A DNA stretch of 33,646 nt from positions 1 through 33,646 of IMG/VR virus record IMGVR_UViG_3300034198_014730. One strand, 5' to 3'. Within the stretch, counting starts at the first letter, position 1. Every line of letters begins with the position of its first letter. This document shows positions 15,491-23,420 of this stretch, in pieces. Source of the stretch: a virus. Under the pieces are notes generated by a model. It saw only the letters and a program-made list of their open reading frames with translations. It was not told the origin of the DNA and ran no database searches. Position numbers and translations under genes: made by a program.

Positions 15491-15712
15491 ATGCGACTCA
15501 AGCGCGTGGCTTTACAGGAGAGATCGAGCGAGGTCTCGACGCTCATCCGAGGCCTGATCGACTCAGGCACTTCCATCGACCAGATCGCCGCGGGGGCACA
15601 CGTTTCGCCGAGAACCGTGTACCGCTGGCTCAATGAAGGTCGGGCCCCGCACCCGGCCTTCCTCGAAGCACTGAGGAAGCTGACCAATGCACATCAGCAA
15701 GGTGAAGGGTAA
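15491..15712 (+). CDS. Small helix-turn-helix regulator
   Basis: 73 residues from ATG 15491 with AAGGAGAG 5 bases upstream. Residues about 27-50 (TSIDQIAAGAHVSPRTVYRWLNEG) form a clear helix-turn-helix: helix, G-A-H turn, then a recognition helix SPRTVYRWL, as in XRE/Cro-like or CRP-tail HTHs. There is no second domain, so it probably acts as a dimer. Its promoter carries the TGACA-N2-TGTCA type operator also found at two other promoters (divergent pair and Sak4 unit), making this protein the best candidate for binding all three. It overlaps the next gene by 26 bases. Confidence 0.85.
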   Translation: MRLKRVALQERSSEVSTLIRGLIDSGTSIDQIAAGAHVSPRTVYRWLNEGRAPHPAFLEALRKLTNAHQQGEG

Positions 15713-17333
15713 CGTCAAGAAGGGCTGCGAGGTCGAGATCGGGCCGAAGACGCTCGTCGTCGGCCCCAACGGCGCAGGCAAGAGCACCATCGTCAACACG
15801 GTGGAGCTTGCATTGACGTCGCGAGTGGGCGACGTCGCGGGCCGCGTGGACATCGCTCGCGAAGCCGACGTCATGTCGCTCGCGACGAACGGCGCCACGG
15901 TGTTGTCGGCCACGGTGGAGTTCGACAATGGCGACACAGCGACCTACGTCACCGAAGGCAGCACCGCGAAAGCCAAGAAGGCCGTCGCCAGCCGTCCCGT
16001 TGCCACCGCGCATGACGAGGTCCTTCCGATCCGCACGCTTCGCGAAGCCGTGCTCGGGAGCGCCCAGACCGCCCGCAAGTACCTGATGAGCAAGGTCTCG
16101 ACGGCCACGAAGGCTGACGTCGAGAACCTGATCCCGACGGCGCTCTCGAATCGATTCGCCGAGTGCTTCCCGGCGAACGTGCCGGTTGCCGACGCGCTCG
16201 TAGCATCCGTCGAGTACGCGGCCAAGCGGCAGCGCGAGTGCAACAGCGAGGCGAAGACGGCCCGCGAGGCGGGCAAGCTCGTCTCCGGCGGCCGTGGTTC
16301 GCCGCCCAGCGAAGCCGACGTGAAGGCGGCTTCCGCGGCGCTGAAGGCCGCCCGCACGAAGCTCAACGAGGCGGAAGCGGCCGAGGACCTGCTCGCCGAT
16401 CTGGAAGAAGCGGAGACCGACTACCAGCTCGCCGAAGACGCCGCGAACGAGGTCGCGATCAAGCTGACCAACGCGCGCACGGCGCTCAATGCGGCGAAGA
16501 AGCCGCGCGAGTTGAACCCGCTGCTCTCGCACGTCTGCATGGTGATGGACGAGAGCATCCTCGCGGGCGAGTGCCTTGCGTGCGGCGGCACGGCCCCGAC
16601 GAAGGCGATGGCCGACGAGGTGAGCGCCGCCATCGGCGACACCGTCGCCGCCAACAAGGCTTACGACAAGCTCGTCGTCGATGTCACGGTGCTGGAGGCA
16701 CAGGCTAAGGCCACGCTGGAGATCCTCGACAAGGCCGACAAGGCCGTCGCAGGGCTGAAGGCGAAGGTCGGCAGCGCAGGGACCGTCGATCGCGCGGCGC
16801 TCGAAGCCGAAGTGGACTCGGCCGAGAAGTCGCTGCTCGATCTGAAGGCCGCGCGAGACGCGTGGGCGAGCGTGCAGAAGGCCGAGAGCGCCGCTCTTGA
16901 CGCCGAGCGTCAGGCCGTCGAGTGGAAGGCCCTCAAGGAAGCGCTGGAGAACGCGATGGCCGCGACGATCGACCAGTCGCTCGACAAGTTCATCGCGAAG
17001 GTTCAGTCGCATCTCCCGAAGTCCGACACGTTCGGCATGAAGCTGCGTGACGGCGAGCGCGAGGTGGTCTCGTTCGGCCTCGTCCGCGACGGACACCTGC
17101 ACACGGCGATGTCGGGTGCCGAGTGGGCGCGAGTGATGGCGGCGATGTCGGCGGCGTGCGTGCCCGAGGGCAAGTACGCGTGCGTGATCCCCGAGGAGCG
17201 CGCGTTCGATCCTGTGACGCTGAAGGACGTGATGTCGGCGCTCACCGACTGCCCGCATCAGGTCATCCTGACGAGTCCTGTGAAGCCGAAGTCCGTCCCG
17301 AAGGGCTGGACGGTGGTCGAGCGCGGCGAGTAG
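15687..17333 (+). CDS. Rad50/SbcC-like SMC-family ATPase
   Basis: 548 residues. Walker A GPNGAGKST (about 27-35) follows a short N-terminal strand pair. A long Ala/Glu/Lys/Asp-rich coiled coil (about 165-480) is interrupted near residue 296 by ECLACGG, a CxxC half-site like the Rad50 zinc hook. Near the end, TAMSGAEWARVMAAM matches the ABC signature position. The acidic segment CVIPEERAF may be Walker B. Shorter than full SbcC, like phage gp46-type proteins. Likely works in DNA end processing with an unlinked nuclease; no SbcD-like gene is adjacent, but the Cas4-like nuclease at 8430 is in the same element. One palindrome copy at 16148 (NRFA). Confidence 0.87.
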   Translation: MHISKVKGNVKKGCEVEIGPKTLVVGPNGAGKSTIVNTVELALTSRVGDVAGRVDIAREADVMSLATNGATVLSATVEFDNGDTATYVTEGSTAKAKKAVASRPVATAHDEVLPIRTLREAVLGSAQTARKYLMSKVSTATKADVENLIPTALSNRFAECFPANVPVADALVASVEYAAKRQRECNSEAKTAREAGKLVSGGRGSPPSEADVKAASAALKAARTKLNEAEAAEDLLADLEEAETDYQLAEDAANEVAIKLTNARTALNAAKKPRELNPLLSHVCMVMDESILAGECLACGGTAPTKAMADEVSAAIGDTVAANKAYDKLVVDVTVLEAQAKATLEILDKADKAVAGLKAKVGSAGTVDRAALEAEVDSAEKSLLDLKAARDAWASVQKAESAALDAERQAVEWKALKEALENAMAATIDQSLDKFIAKVQSHLPKSDTFGMKLRDGEREVVSFGLVRDGHLHTAMSGAEWARVMAAMSAACVPEGKYACVIPEERAFDPVTLKDVMSALTDCPHQVILTSPVKPKSVPKGWTVVERGE

Positions 17334-17348
17334 CCGTAAGGTGGGGCC

Positions 17349-18365
17349 ATGGCTACGCGCATGACCGTTCATCAGGCAGCGGACCTCTGGCGAGTGAACC
17401 GGCGCACGATCCTCAAGTGGATCATGGGCAAGGACGCCAGCGGTCGAGGCAAGCGTCTCGTCGAGGGCGAGGACTACGAGGTCGTGGACGCCGACATCGA
17501 CGGCAGGAAGATGTACGTCCTGCTGCGATCGGACTACCCGCCGCCCCGGAATCTCAACCCGATCCCGCGCAAGCCGCGCGGGCGTCAGGGCCCCCGCGAA
17601 GCAGCGGTTGAAGCCGCTCGCGGCCGCACCCACTTTGAACAGGTGGCCAGTCAGGTTTCACCCGTCGAAGTCGTTGAAACCGTTGTCGAGGCGGCTGTGC
17701 CGGTCGGTGGTGATCGGTACAGCCAAATCGATTCGCAGCGCTTCACTCCTGTGGCCCCGCCGCCTCCCACGACCGCGGAAGAGGCGGCCGAGCAGTTCGC
17801 CGTGACGCAGGAAGCCGCGACGCCAGAAGTCGTGACGCCGAAGCCAAAGCGTCGCCGGTCACGCCGAGAAGACGTGATCCCGACGATCGACACCTACCTC
17901 CCGGCGCAGCCGGATCGGCCCGAGGACGAGGAGGAGTTCCAACTCCCCGAGAAGCCGATCCGATCGGCCGTCTCGCCCGAGTACGAAGGCGAATCGATTC
18001 GCACCCAGATCGAGAAGTGGGTGCGCGCCTCGTCGAACGAAGACGCCGATCAGGAAGACCCGGTCGCGGCGTTGCCGCGCTTCCTGCTCAGTACGTCGAT
18101 GGAGGCCGTGGACATCGGAAGCCCGTTCGAGTTCGTGAAGCTCGGACAGCCGGGGATCGAAGCCGCCATGACGCGCGTGCTCAAGGCCTCGCCCATGACC
18201 GACGAGGCGCGGTTCTTCGCGGGTGGGGTCCTGCTGGAGTATCTGGCCAACCACCCGATCCTCAAGCTGCGAAACCTGTCCCCTTCGCCGTACTGGCCCC
18301 GCAAGGGTCAGCTTTCAGGCCTCGGCGCAATCTACGCGCTGCCGCTCTACGACTGGATGCTGTAG
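17349..18365 (+). CDS. HTH protein with long linker, possible replication or regulatory factor
   Basis: 338 residues. Residues about 5-60 (MTVHQAADLWRVNRRTILKWI...GRGKRLVEGEDYEVVDADIDGRKMYVL) resemble a MerR/excisionase-type winged HTH in which a helix-turn-helix precedes a beta wing. A 150-residue Pro/Ala/Glu/Arg-rich linker follows, likely disordered, with two palindrome copies (17725, 17991). The final 120 residues are a folded alpha domain (DPVAALPRFLLSTSMEAVDIG... to LYDWML) unlike anything I recognise. The gene lies directly before the direct-repeat cluster, so it is a candidate binder of those repeats or an initiator; this is inferred from position only. Confidence 0.75.
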   Translation: MATRMTVHQAADLWRVNRRTILKWIMGKDASGRGKRLVEGEDYEVVDADIDGRKMYVLLRSDYPPPRNLNPIPRKPRGRQGPREAAVEAARGRTHFEQVASQVSPVEVVETVVEAAVPVGGDRYSQIDSQRFTPVAPPPPTTAEEAAEQFAVTQEAATPEVVTPKPKRRRSRREDVIPTIDTYLPAQPDRPEDEEEFQLPEKPIRSAVSPEYEGESIRTQIEKWVRASSNEDADQEDPVAALPRFLLSTSMEAVDIGSPFEFVKLGQPGIEAAMTRVLKASPMTDEARFFAGGVLLEYLANHPILKLRNLSPSPYWPRKGQLSGLGAIYALPLYDWML

Positions 18366-18392
18366 CGAGCACTCCCCAGCCCGCGCGCGACG

Positions 18393-18423
18393 CGCCGCCG
18401 TGAGCCGAGAGGCCGCGGCGGCG
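18393..18423 (+). terminator. Likely terminator after the HTH-linker gene
   Basis: CGCCGCCG (18393-18400) pairs with CGGCGGCG (18416-18423), followed by a mixed T-rich stretch (TCGTCGTTCCT). The uridine tract is poor, so termination would be partial or Rho-aided. The stem begins 27 bases after the stop codon at 18365. Confidence 0.5.
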
Positions 18424-18466
18424 TCGTCGTTCCTGCGCCCGTCGAATCGATTCCCGCCCCCAACCT

Positions 18467-18643
18467 TGAGCCCCCGGATGCAGAAATACCCCCCTACCCT
18501 TGGCCCCCTCATGTAGAAACATACCCCCCCTTGGCCCCCGGATGTAGATTGACTCCCCCCAGGACTGGCCCTCGGATGTAGATACCTAAACCCGCGAAAT
18601 CATTAGGTTCTTCCGGGGGCTTGACTTGGCCCCCGGATGCGGG
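18467..18643 (+). repeat. Five iteron-like direct repeats
   Basis: An 18-base unit, best copy TTGGCCCCCGGATGTAGA at 18531-18548, occurs also at about 18467-18484, 18500-18517, 18565-18582 and 18626-18643 with 1-4 changes. Start-to-start distances are 33, 31, 34 and 61 bases, the last close to two units. Between copies four and five lies an inverted core CCGGGGGC (18613-18620) that pairs with GCCCCCGG (18629-18636), and an ACCTAA/TTAGGT pair (18584-18589 with 18603-18608). The helical phasing (about three turns per step) is typical of sites bound cooperatively by one protein, such as plasmid iterons. A promoter is built into the last copy. Confidence 0.8.
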
Positions 18644-18649
18644 TACTAT
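18621..18649 (+). promoter_or_regulatory. Near-consensus promoter inside the last iteron
   Basis: TTGACT (18621-18626), 17-base spacer, TACTAT (18644-18649). The -35 and spacer overlap the fifth direct repeat and an inverted repeat, so a protein that binds the repeats should block or control it. It reads rightward into roughly 1 kb without convincing genes, with transcription predicted to start near 18656. Confidence 0.8.
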
Positions 18650-18655
18650 TGTTTC

Positions 18656-19690
18656 ACCTCGACGGGATGCACGACGGGCCCGCCGGGGGGCAAGGCAAGG
18701 CAAGCGGTGCGCGTGGCTTGTACTTTGGCCCGCGCGTCCCTCTCGCGACGCATGGCGGCGGTGCCGCTAGGCTATCGGGGGAGTGCTCTTTGACAAGCAA
18801 GGGGACCGCGCGAGTCTACCATGACGCGCGATCGTCACAAGCCCCCCCGATGGGAATAAAGCGCGCGAGCGTGATGTATCGGGGACAGGCCGCTAGGCGG
18901 CAAGTAGGGCACCATGTTACCGGCCGGAAGGCCGGGGCGATCGCGGGAAAGGAAAGGCGCGTGCCGCGATAGTAAGCGGCCGAAAAGGTCCCTGATACAT
19001 AGGTTCGCATCGTCTCCAAAACGATGCACCCTTCCCGATATATGCCCAAGCCTGCTAGTATGGCGGCGGATCATGTTGCGGGAGTGAAGGGCGAGCCGTC
19101 ATATGCACGGCGCGCGTACGCTAGACGTTGATCCCGCTACAGTTGCGGCTTGACGCGCGGCGTTCGTGTAAGGCCTAAGAAAGCGGGTAACTATGATTCC
19201 CGCCACTCCTGAGGATGAATGAGCCTCTCGCGAATCGGCTAGACGCACCTAATAGTGAATCGTTTCTCTACGATGCCGCCCGCGGCATTGTATGGATAGA
19301 TCGCCAAAACGGGGCGCCGATTTAATCGCAAGCTCATGCACGCCGGTAAGTATGCACGCAAGTCGCGACTATGCTTAGAGCGTTGAACGGGGGAGCCGAT
19401 AGTGCCGGTGCATTTCGCCGGTTGCGACTATCGGGCGGGCCGGAAGGCCCGTGCGCTGCCCGATGCAGCATCCCAGTCCGAAACGACGGCAATCGTGCCG
19501 TGGGGCAATAGTGCCTAGGACGCGACGCACGACGGGATCGAGCCGGGAAAGCCAGCGCAATAAACAACGGGGCGACGGGTGCAACGGCCGCAAGGCTATT
19601 GCGCCCGTCGCTCCGAATCGAAGGGCCCGCAACGCAATCGATTCGCGGACCTTTCGATTCGGAGCGACACTCCGAAACACGAGACAATCA
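18656..19690 (+). ncRNA. Candidate large structured non-coding RNA (about 1 kb)
   Basis: No credible reading frame: the longest frames lack ribosome sites and codon bias. Instead there are many perfect or near-perfect stems. Pairs on the plus strand are: 18822-18826/18833-18837; 18845-18851/18878-18884; 18889-18893/18897-18901; 18920-18925/18930-18935 (GGAA loop); 18940-18946/18964-18970; 19007-19013/19021-19027; 19078-19083/19132-19137; 19095-19099/19107-19111; 19273-19279/19282-19288; 19396-19403/19427-19434; 19437-19441/19446-19450 (GGAA loop); 19455-19459/19465-19469; 19486-19491/19496-19501; 19504-19507/19512-19515. A 13-base-pair long-range helix (18874-18886/18988-19000) encloses three of them, and two long stems end the block (19572-19668). 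This recalls large ornate RNAs of phages such as GOLLD and ROOL, but I could not match any known family. A replication origin with much secondary structure is the main alternative. Confidence 0.55.
19572..19668 (+). other. Two long overlapping stem-loops, mutually exclusive
   Basis: Stem A: GCGACGGGTGCAA (19572-19584) with TTGCGCCCGTCGC (19599-19611), 13 pairs with one G-U, loop containing a nested GGCC-GCAA-GGCT. Stem B: GTCGCTCCGAATCGAA (19607-19622) with TTCGATTCGGAGCGAC (19653-19668), 16 perfect pairs, with a palindrome copy (19635-19644) in its loop. The two share bases 19607-19611, so both cannot form fully in one RNA. They lie about 60 bases before the start of the gene at 19725. Confidence 0.75.
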
Positions 19691-19724
19691 ACGCGGCCGA
19701 ATAGGCCGCAAGCGAGGGGAAACG

Positions 19725-19886
19725 ATGGAAAAGATCTTTAGGCGCACGCTGCACGCCCTGCCGCTGTCCGCACGGTTCGCGGCTTTCTCGTTCGTGAAAG
19801 AGCGCATCGTTCGCAACTACCGGCTACCCGACACCGTCCGCGGTGTCGGTAGTCTCTTTCTTCGCAACCTTTTGGGAGGGGTCTAG
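19725..19886 (+). CDS. Small basic protein of unknown function
   Basis: 53 residues. ATG 19725 has AGGGGAAA upstream and is preceded by a leader hairpin (GCGGCC-GAATA-GGCCGC, 19693-19709). The protein is basic and partly amphipathic (MEKIFRRTLHALPLSARFAAF, then FVKERIVRNYRLP). No family recognised. It is the first gene after the non-coding block and is separated from the next start by one base. Confidence 0.6.
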   Translation: MEKIFRRTLHALPLSARFAAFSFVKERIVRNYRLPDTVRGVGSLFLRNLLGGV

Positions 19887-19887
19887 C

Positions 19888-20220
19888 ATGCGCGTCAATA
19901 CCCGTAACGTCATCGCCGCTTGGCAGTCCGGCAAGGAATACAGGCGGGAGGATTCTATCTGGACCGATGGCACGTCGATCTTTTCGTACCGGACGTGCCT
20001 CGCAACGCCGCTCGCGGACGGCCTCATGGTTCTGAATCGGACGAAGTACAGTGCGACCACGTCGAACAAGCAATCGGACGTTTCTTTCGCGCTCCGCGGC
20101 ATGATCGCGTGCGAGGTGTCCGGGCTCCATATGGGCGCCGAGCCGCGGCACCTGCTCGACGTGGCGAGCGCGCTGCCCGCCGCGGCCGAGCGCGCGGCCC
20201 GCGTCATGGGCGCGGTCTAG
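19888..20220 (+). CDS. Conserved mobile-element protein with TKYS-TTS motif
   Basis: 110 residues, starting right after the previous stop with GGGAGGGG upstream. The pattern NTRNVIAAWQSGK, WTDG-x3-FSYRTC and VLNRTKYSATTSNKQ is one I recognise from many phages, plasmids and metagenomic elements of bacteria, with conserved W-x-DG, Y-x-T and T-x-YS-x-TTS positions. No function is known. Its C-terminal helix (HLLDVASALPAAAERAARVMG) is lineage-specific. Confidence 0.85.
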   Translation: MRVNTRNVIAAWQSGKEYRREDSIWTDGTSIFSYRTCLATPLADGLMVLNRTKYSATTSNKQSDVSFALRGMIACEVSGLHMGAEPRHLLDVASALPAAAERAARVMGAV

Positions 20221-20305
20221 CCCCCGCGGGGACTCCGCGCAACCCACCAACCAACGCGCCGCAACGGCGCATGACGCGCGAATCGATTCGCGCAAGAGGC
20301 AACCC

Positions 20306-21496
20306 ATGACGAAGCTCACGAGCAAGGCAACCATCAACGCGGCCGGGAAGGCCGCACCGGAGGGCAACGTGGCGAACGTGAACGAGACCTTGGAGACCGT
20401 GGCGGGCGCGGTGTCGGAATACGGCGCGGGCGAGGTCTACAACGTCCCTGTCGCGATCATCTGGTACGAGACCGACAAGGCGGCCGTGGACTACGATCCG
20501 CGCGTCGAGCGCACCCTCCCCGACACGTTCGTCGAGACGATCGAGCGAGAGGGCGTGTTGGAGTCCATCACGCTCCGCGAGTCCGTCAACCCGGCGAACC
20601 CGAAGCAGACGCTCAAGGTCGTCAACGGTAAAACCCGCTTCCGCGCGGCGCTCAAGGCCGGTCTCGCGCTCATCAAGGGTGGCATCGTCACGGCCGACGC
20701 GAAAAAGGCGCTGGAACTTCAGGTGCTTTTGAACGCGCACCGTTTCGCGGACGAGAGCGATCTTCAGTGCGACAACGCGGCCCGTCTCGCGGCCCTTGGC
20801 TACAGCGTGGCCGAGATCGCGCGCGTCTTCAACGTGCCCGAGTCAACGGCCCGCAACACGCTCAAAATCGTGAAAACGGTCCCCGAAGTTGCCGCGAGCC
20901 CGCACCTGTCGTTCGCGGCGAAAGAGGAACTGTCCCGCCGCGACCCGGAGACCGTCGCCGCGGCCCTCCCGATTCTCGAAGACGTGGCTAAGGCCGCGGA
21001 GCTTTCCAAGGACGGGAAGGCCGACGCGGGCCTCGCCAAGGGCAAGGACGGGAAGGCGTCCCGCAAGGCCGATGCGACGGTCAAAGAGACCAAGGACGGG
21101 CGCAAGGTGGGACAGGCGTCGCACTCCGCGACCAAGGGGCTCTGCGACGTGATCGAGGGCAAGGACAAGGAGCCCGCGAAGCCCGCGAAGCCCGCCGCGC
21201 CCGCTAAGGCCCCGGCCGTGGCCGCGAAGGACACGCGGCCCGACGCGGGATCGCTCCGCGCGAAGGCGGCGCTCTGCCGCGCGGTGTCCGGTCTCGCGAA
21301 GGGCACGGGGGCGGCGGCCGAGTCGCACCGCGCCTTCGTGGCGGGCGTGCAAGCGGCCCTGTTCTTCGCGGCCGGGGACAAGCTCGACACGCTCCCCGGT
21401 GGCCCGATCACGCCCGAGGTCAAGGCGGCCGTCGCCGACGCCCTCGCCCGCCTGTTCAAGGACGCGACGCTGGCCGAGGACAAGGCGGCGGCGTAG
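20306..21496 (+). CDS. ParB/KorB-like DNA-binding protein
   Basis: 396 residues. About 40-145: ParB N-terminal domain with the ESITLRESVNP...KVVNGKTRFRAALKAG block, where NGKTRFRA stands at the usual GERRWRA position. About 160-188: helix-turn-helix RLAALGYSVAEIARVFNVPESTARNTLKI, as in ParB/KorB central domains. From about 255 it becomes Lys/Ala/Pro-rich and probably disordered, then ends in a helical domain. The start codon follows a leader in which the palindrome is extended to 18 bases (20276-20293). It has no ParA neighbour in the window. It could be a centromere-binding or KorB-like global regulator and is one candidate for the protein that reads the repeated palindrome. Confidence 0.85.
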   Translation: MTKLTSKATINAAGKAAPEGNVANVNETLETVAGAVSEYGAGEVYNVPVAIIWYETDKAAVDYDPRVERTLPDTFVETIEREGVLESITLRESVNPANPKQTLKVVNGKTRFRAALKAGLALIKGGIVTADAKKALELQVLLNAHRFADESDLQCDNAARLAALGYSVAEIARVFNVPESTARNTLKIVKTVPEVAASPHLSFAAKEELSRRDPETVAAALPILEDVAKAAELSKDGKADAGLAKGKDGKASRKADATVKETKDGRKVGQASHSATKGLCDVIEGKDKEPAKPAKPAAPAKAPAVAAKDTRPDAGSLRAKAALCRAVSGLAKGTGAAAESHRAFVAGVQAALFFAAGDKLDTLPGGPITPEVKAAVADALARLFKDATLAEDKAAA

Positions 21497-21627
21497 CGTG
21501 CACTCCCCGGACGGCTCGCCGGAAACGGCGGGCCGTTCAATCGAGCGCCCAGCGAATCGATTCGCCGGACGTTCGCATGAACGGCTCACGAGACATTCAA
21601 CGCGCCGAAAGGCGCAAGGGGGCACGA

Positions 21628-21864
21628 GTGCACACCAACGAAATGCTTGAGCGCTTGACGCGGCACGATCGCAACCAACTCACGAACGCGCTCTCGCACG
21701 TCGAGGCGCTCATGCGATTCGCGGGCAGCGCCGCGTGGACAAGCGACCCCGACACGCTGCGAAGCGAACTCGCGCGACTGGAAGCCGAAAGCGACGCGCA
21801 CACGGCCGAGTTTTTCCGCGCCGCGCGCGTGATGCTCCAGCGCCAGTGGCTCGACGGGGCGTAG
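21628..21864 (+). CDS. Small helical orphan protein
   Basis: 78 residues from GTG 21628, chosen because AAGGGGG and the leader hairpin GCGCC-GAAA-GGCGC (21602-21615) lie directly upstream; an upstream ATG in frame would run through that hairpin. All helical by eye (MLERLTRHDRNQLTNALSHVEALMRF...). No family recognised. Confidence 0.6.
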   Translation: MHTNEMLERLTRHDRNQLTNALSHVEALMRFAGSAAWTSDPDTLRSELARLEAESDAHTAEFFRAARVMLQRQWLDGA

Positions 21865-23277: not shown

Positions 23278-23318
23278 CGCGCACTCCGCGCGGGGCGGGT
23301 GGCTTTGGAAAAAGCCAT

Positions 23319-23362
23319 CCGTTCCCGCCGCAATCCCTCACGGGGGGTTCCGGCGGGAACGG
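23319..23362 (+). terminator. Large hairpin after the AAA+ gene
   Basis: CCGTTCCCGCCG (23319-23330) pairs perfectly with CGGCGGGAACGG (23351-23362) around a 20-base loop. Just before it is a GGCTTT/AAAGCC stem (about 23301-23315). No T-tract follows, so it may be a processing or stability element rather than a terminator. The region ends in the palindrome (23394) and the next ribosome site. Confidence 0.5.
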
Positions 23363-23420
23363 GTGTCGAGCAAGTCAACAACGGACGGCGATCGAATCGA
23401 TTCGCCAAGAGGCAAGAGAG

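Follow-up and report, generated by a model that had tools for sequence, protein, structure and literature searches.

A predicted stable RNA junction in a gene-free phage region beside a ParB-like gene, possibly one domain of a long noncoding RNA

We examined a 13-pair long-range helix (18874-18886 with 18988-19000, + strand) in a window of 33,646 bases, which is the entire record of a metagenomic bacterial virus, and we consider the chances evenly balanced that this helix forms a stable domain within a phage noncoding RNA about 1 kb long, made from its own transcription unit. In the mechanism that we propose, a DNA-binding protein of the phage would bind a set of repeats and gate a sigma-70-type promoter; the likeliest candidate is the helix-turn-helix (HTH) protein encoded just upstream. 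From this promoter RNA polymerase would make a transcript of about 0.75-1.0 kb ending at or near a 3′ hairpin. The folded RNA itself, not a message, would be the product: a structured, phage-timed RNA comparable in action to the large phage RNAs GOLLD and ROOL. A noncoding RNA is made plausible by the position of the region in three phages, by operator-like copies in the promoter spacer of two of them, by a terminator in one and by GNRA-capped hairpins on the + strand.

The window carries phage-type genes for a helicase, an exonuclease, a Sak4-like annealing protein and a PolA-type DNA polymerase, with a weak match to SSB, and further along it encodes a ParB-like protein and then a tyrosine integrase. 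Scans of viral contigs returned the region in just one near-identical sister (a contig of 57,349 bases, 99.86% identical to the window across the compared stretch) and in two distant relatives, L006 and L024, whose DNA polymerases are 63% and 58% identical to that of the window; scans of genome contigs gave no match. The window, L006 and L024 share one gene order, namely an ATPase, the HTH protein, the gene-free region and the ParB-like protein. In the window the ATPase (15687-17333) is a RecF/SMC-like AAA_23 protein, 48-53% identical to the versions of the relatives, and tblastn found no match to it among 50,697 phage records. The HTH protein (17349-18365, + strand; 338 aa, N-terminal helix-turn-helix, weak HTH_59 match) shows 37% and 38% identity to its positional counterparts in L006 and L024, the L024 protein having an HTH_17/MerR match; among the loci of at least 3 kb examined, homologues were confined to records from these three phages. 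At a further locus, L007 (polymerase 60% identical), a cassette of small ORFs (16286-21821) replaces the HTH/gene-free/ParB-like module of the window.

The gene-free stretch of the window is unusually long (18366-19724), the first credible ORF beginning at 19725, and a simple codon-usage predictor called no gene across 18366-19842. In each of the three phages, no other predicted gap between genes on the contig is as large as this region (1,463, 1,323 and 1,941 bases, the last figure taking in two small ORFs; next-largest gaps 818, 530 and 791 bases). Gaps of up to 1,382 bases also occur elsewhere in five sister contigs for which the search for a ParB-like gene came back empty, an answer that shows little, and gap size alone is thus not diagnostic. 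The predicted noncoding transcript, whose two ends we infer (18656-19670, + strand, about 1.0 kb), contains no predicted gene; small ORFs inside the gene-free region reach 101 aa and may conceivably be coding. Downstream, all on the + strand, lie an ORF of 53 aa with GAGGGG upstream (19725-19886), an ORF of 110 aa that weakly matches phrog_32689, a family of unknown function (19888-20220), and the ParB-like gene (20306-21496), whose ParB_N and HTH matches both fall below the Pfam cut-offs.

Motif matching revealed, ahead of the predicted transcript and on the same strand, an array of four operator-like repeats GGCCCCCGGATGTAGA spaced 31-34 bp (18469-18582) and a sigma-70-like promoter, TTGACT-17-TACTAT (18621-18649, 9/12), with a fifth copy of the repeat (18628-18643) occupying its -35/-10 spacer. 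These five are the only matches to GGCCCCCGGATGTAGA in the window at 0-3 mismatches; shuffled sequences held 0.34 on average, and none of 100 reached five. In L024, two promoters (TTGACG-17-TATACT and TTGACA-18-TATACT, 10/12 and 11/12, against 0.3 expected) each hold in their spacer a copy of a motif, ATGCGAGAGGGGG, which is unlike that of the window; a 20-kb slice contains five matches to it, four of them at the locus, and a total of five was reached by 2 of 200 shuffles. Spacer copies are therefore present in two of the three phages. L006, with four related repeats upstream of its region, makes a weaker case than these two, since its slice holds eight matches where 4.5 would be expected; the promoter scan found no promoter there, and a weaker TTGCAT-17-GACTAT was placed by eye. 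A regulator may bind the operator-like repeats, and the 338-aa HTH protein encoded upstream is the obvious candidate for this role and for control of the promoter. The gene-free region of L006 is also flanked by identical GGCCGAATCGATTC elements (18540-18553 and 19716-19729), which CGAATCGATTC strings in the window (18443-18453 and 23393-23403) resemble.

Strong 3′ hairpins were found in all three phages. In the window these are, on the + strand, a hairpin with a GCAA loop (19572-19611), picked up by both the helix count and the search for GNRA hairpins, and an inverted repeat of 24 nt, 92% complementary (19607-19668), at which the 150-nt window z of about -8.8 is the lowest in the window. Inverted repeats unrelated in sequence lie near the same relative place in L006 (19646-19696) and L024 (15754-15799). 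No T-run follows the inverted repeat of the window, and a T-run terminator is absent from the 3′ end of the region in both the window and L006. In L024, the upstream gene has a terminator of its own, and the unit itself runs from the promoters through about 0.75 kb of gene-free DNA to a perfect hairpin followed by TTTTT, an intrinsic terminator. Alternatively, the RNA could serve the parB operon as a long 5′ leader or attenuator, its hairpins controlling the entry of polymerase or ribosomes into parB from a position before the small ORFs; it would run in the same direction as parB, in the window the last strong hairpin ends 57 bases short of the next ORF, and the L024 terminator stands directly before a 60-aa ORF. 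We judge this unlikely, given that 0.75-1 kb would be an exceptional length for a leader, that Rfam gave no credible match at gathering or permissive thresholds, riboswitch and leader families included, and that a full terminator closes the L024 unit.

The strands of the 13-pair helix and their pairing, with one G-U, were confirmed, and in the fold of the full transcript 12 of the 13 pairs have probabilities of 0.94-0.98 and the outermost pair 0.73. The 127-nt segment that it closes (18874-19000) folds at -62.6 kcal/mol (z -4.83), a stability matched by 0 of 200 shuffles. The sequence-only reading had placed three hairpins inside the helix, and two of them stand, both on the + strand: one of six pairs with a GGAA (GNRA) loop (18920-18935, p about 1), and one with a 7-pair stem and a 17-nt apical region (18940-18970, p 0.81-0.98). 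The third, at 18889-18901, is present as a string with a pair probability of 0.008 and gives way to a second long-range helix of seven pairs, which joins GGCCGCT (18888-18894) with AGCGGCC (18975-18981; span 18888-18981, + strand, p 0.91-0.99), so that the closing stem consists of 13+7 pairs enclosing two hairpins. A switch had also been suggested, in which the 5′ arm would pair in part with 18845-18851; the strands are complementary, but this pairing has probability 0 and forcing it costs 6.2 kcal/mol, because 18844-18853 is already paired by 18772-18781 in an upstream hairpin domain (18772-18853, + strand, p 0.97-1.0). A stretch of 230 bases holds near-copies of the strand TATCGGGG together with two complementary strands (18772-18782, 18842-18851, 18878-18885 and 18988-18996); other pairings could thus be drawn, though the computed ensemble does not favour them.

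The same reading had held a junction of this kind to be unlikely by chance, which fails for the helix alone. When helices of at least 13 pairs, with at most one G-U and a span of up to 140, were counted on the + strand, the window held five, whereas 20 shuffles averaged 1.3 and never exceeded 4, and outside the region 9 of 637 windows of 150 nt reached z -4.0 or lower, the window of the finding itself standing at -3.98. Helices this frequent in shuffles and outside windows this stable mean that a single helix is unremarkable; the unusual part is the clustering of three of the five in about 1 kb of the gene-free stretch (18874-19000, 19572-19611 and 19607-19668). The 150-nt scan gave a mean z of -1.65 for the 19 windows inside the region against -0.34 for the 637 outside. 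Among the few long helices elsewhere in the window is a strong imperfect hairpin (23316-23365) just past the end of an AAA ATPase gene (23277), where the 150-nt window at 23301 has a z of -6.3; this is possibly a terminator or a processing site.

On the + strand, GNRA-capped hairpins number four in the window, one in L006 and two in L024, seven in total, and there are none on the - strand of any of the three; counts as high were reached in 0 of 500 shuffles for the window, 134 of 500 for L006 and 28 of 500 for L024. Whole-transcript folds gave z-scores (+/-) of -4.8/-4.9, -2.6/-3.6 and -5.5/-5.7 in the three regions, and with the 3′ hairpins removed the + strand values were -1.7, -1.3 and -2.3. 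Most of the folding excess thus resides in the 3′ hairpins, and z is about equal between strands. This strand symmetry would suit a control region acting at the DNA level, an operator or iteron array with inverted repeats bound by phage proteins, for which a folded RNA is irrelevant, and so would the repeat array and the flanking genes, HTH on one side and ParB-like on the other. We hold this to be quite improbable, as the L024 promoters lead into a gene-free stretch of about 0.75 kb that is closed by a terminator, and the GNRA loops are confined to the + strand. The composition of unpaired bases did not separate real sequences from shuffles and was for that reason left out of the evidence.

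No sequence similarity was detected between the regions of the window, L006 and L024, and apart from the 3′ hairpins no comparable helix of at least 13 pairs was found on the transcribed strand of the L006 and L024 regions; L024 has one long helix, on the opposite strand. A covariance model of the junction matched only the window among the 15 loci searched, a match in L100 (E 0.44) being taken as chance. The relatives have diverged too far for alignment; covariation therefore neither supports nor formally refutes the pairing, and the three changes within the region in the sister contig all fall at unpaired positions, too few to count. BLAST of the three regions against phages gave no match; against plasmids, the window region alone was used, and a single 35-base match (E 0.009) was taken as chance. 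The earlier proposal of a functional RNA accordingly remains plausible mainly by context: the junction itself is not conserved and hence is not the main support.

GOLLD, often longer than 800 nt and raised during lysis according to PMC12286853, and ROOL are nearest in kind to the predicted RNA, as long structured noncoding RNAs within phage genomes, and no model matched. The differences are that the window has no Rfam match at the gathering threshold and that in none of the three regions does either family appear at E values up to 10, that the tRNA neighbourhood common but not universal there is absent (0 tRNAs in the window; in three fuller contigs a single one, at 18.9 kb of G001, far from the locus at 48 kb), and that the three phages here lack conserved sequence blocks. 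The accessible text of an earlier structured-RNA catalogue, PMC2864571, holds nothing on this locus, and a literature search returned no paper on it, which is weak evidence of novelty.

Non-RepA mycobacteriophage prophages (RedRock, Alma, LadyBird) offer, in their RNA-based origins, the nearest precedent for a noncoding RNA beside partition genes of a phage: a parABS-adjacent region of ~600 bp, 41-71% identical in nucleotides between phages, expresses a noncoding RNA and is needed for prophage stability (PMC7157519). The likeness to our locus is a gene-free region of low conservation adjoining partition genes, with an RNA expressed there and predicted here. This precedent, the adjoining ParB-like gene and the PolA-type polymerase raise the prospect of an RNA-based replication origin, at which the transcript would prime or open DNA replication with the ParB-like protein as partner. 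We regard such an origin as rather unlikely: a tyrosine integrase (PF00589) is present in five of five contigs tested, a ParA-type AAA_31 ATPase (PF13614) in none of the five, which may be incomplete (control genomes, 14 of 14 positive), the RNA would run co-directionally with parB and not against it, the region is longer than in those prophages, and no GC-skew turn was seen at the locus in the three phages. A similar logic is found in ColE1, where a promoter is followed by a long untranslated RNA, RNA II, and a PolA-type polymerase is relevant. Our locus shares the promoter, the long untranslated RNA as predicted and such a polymerase, and differs from ColE1 in having no established RNA I-like antisense promoter and no shown origin. 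The ColE1 primer system is touched on in the introduction of PMC7157519.

Returning to a phage noncoding RNA with its own transcription unit, we suggest tentatively, and with some doubt, that it may represent a new class of 0.75-1 kb, gated by a phage protein that binds DNA within the promoter spacer and connected with a ParB-like protein; its evolution would be so rapid that conservation is limited to position, promoter logic and the end hairpin. To our knowledge, few long noncoding RNAs of phages have been described, and no role has yet been settled for GOLLD or ROOL. If our reading is true, covariation-based discovery would pass over a unit of this kind, with its operator-controlled promoter, constant neighbours and low sequence conservation, and the unit would offer a simple genetic handle, as the region could be deleted with lysis, lysogeny and replication as readouts.
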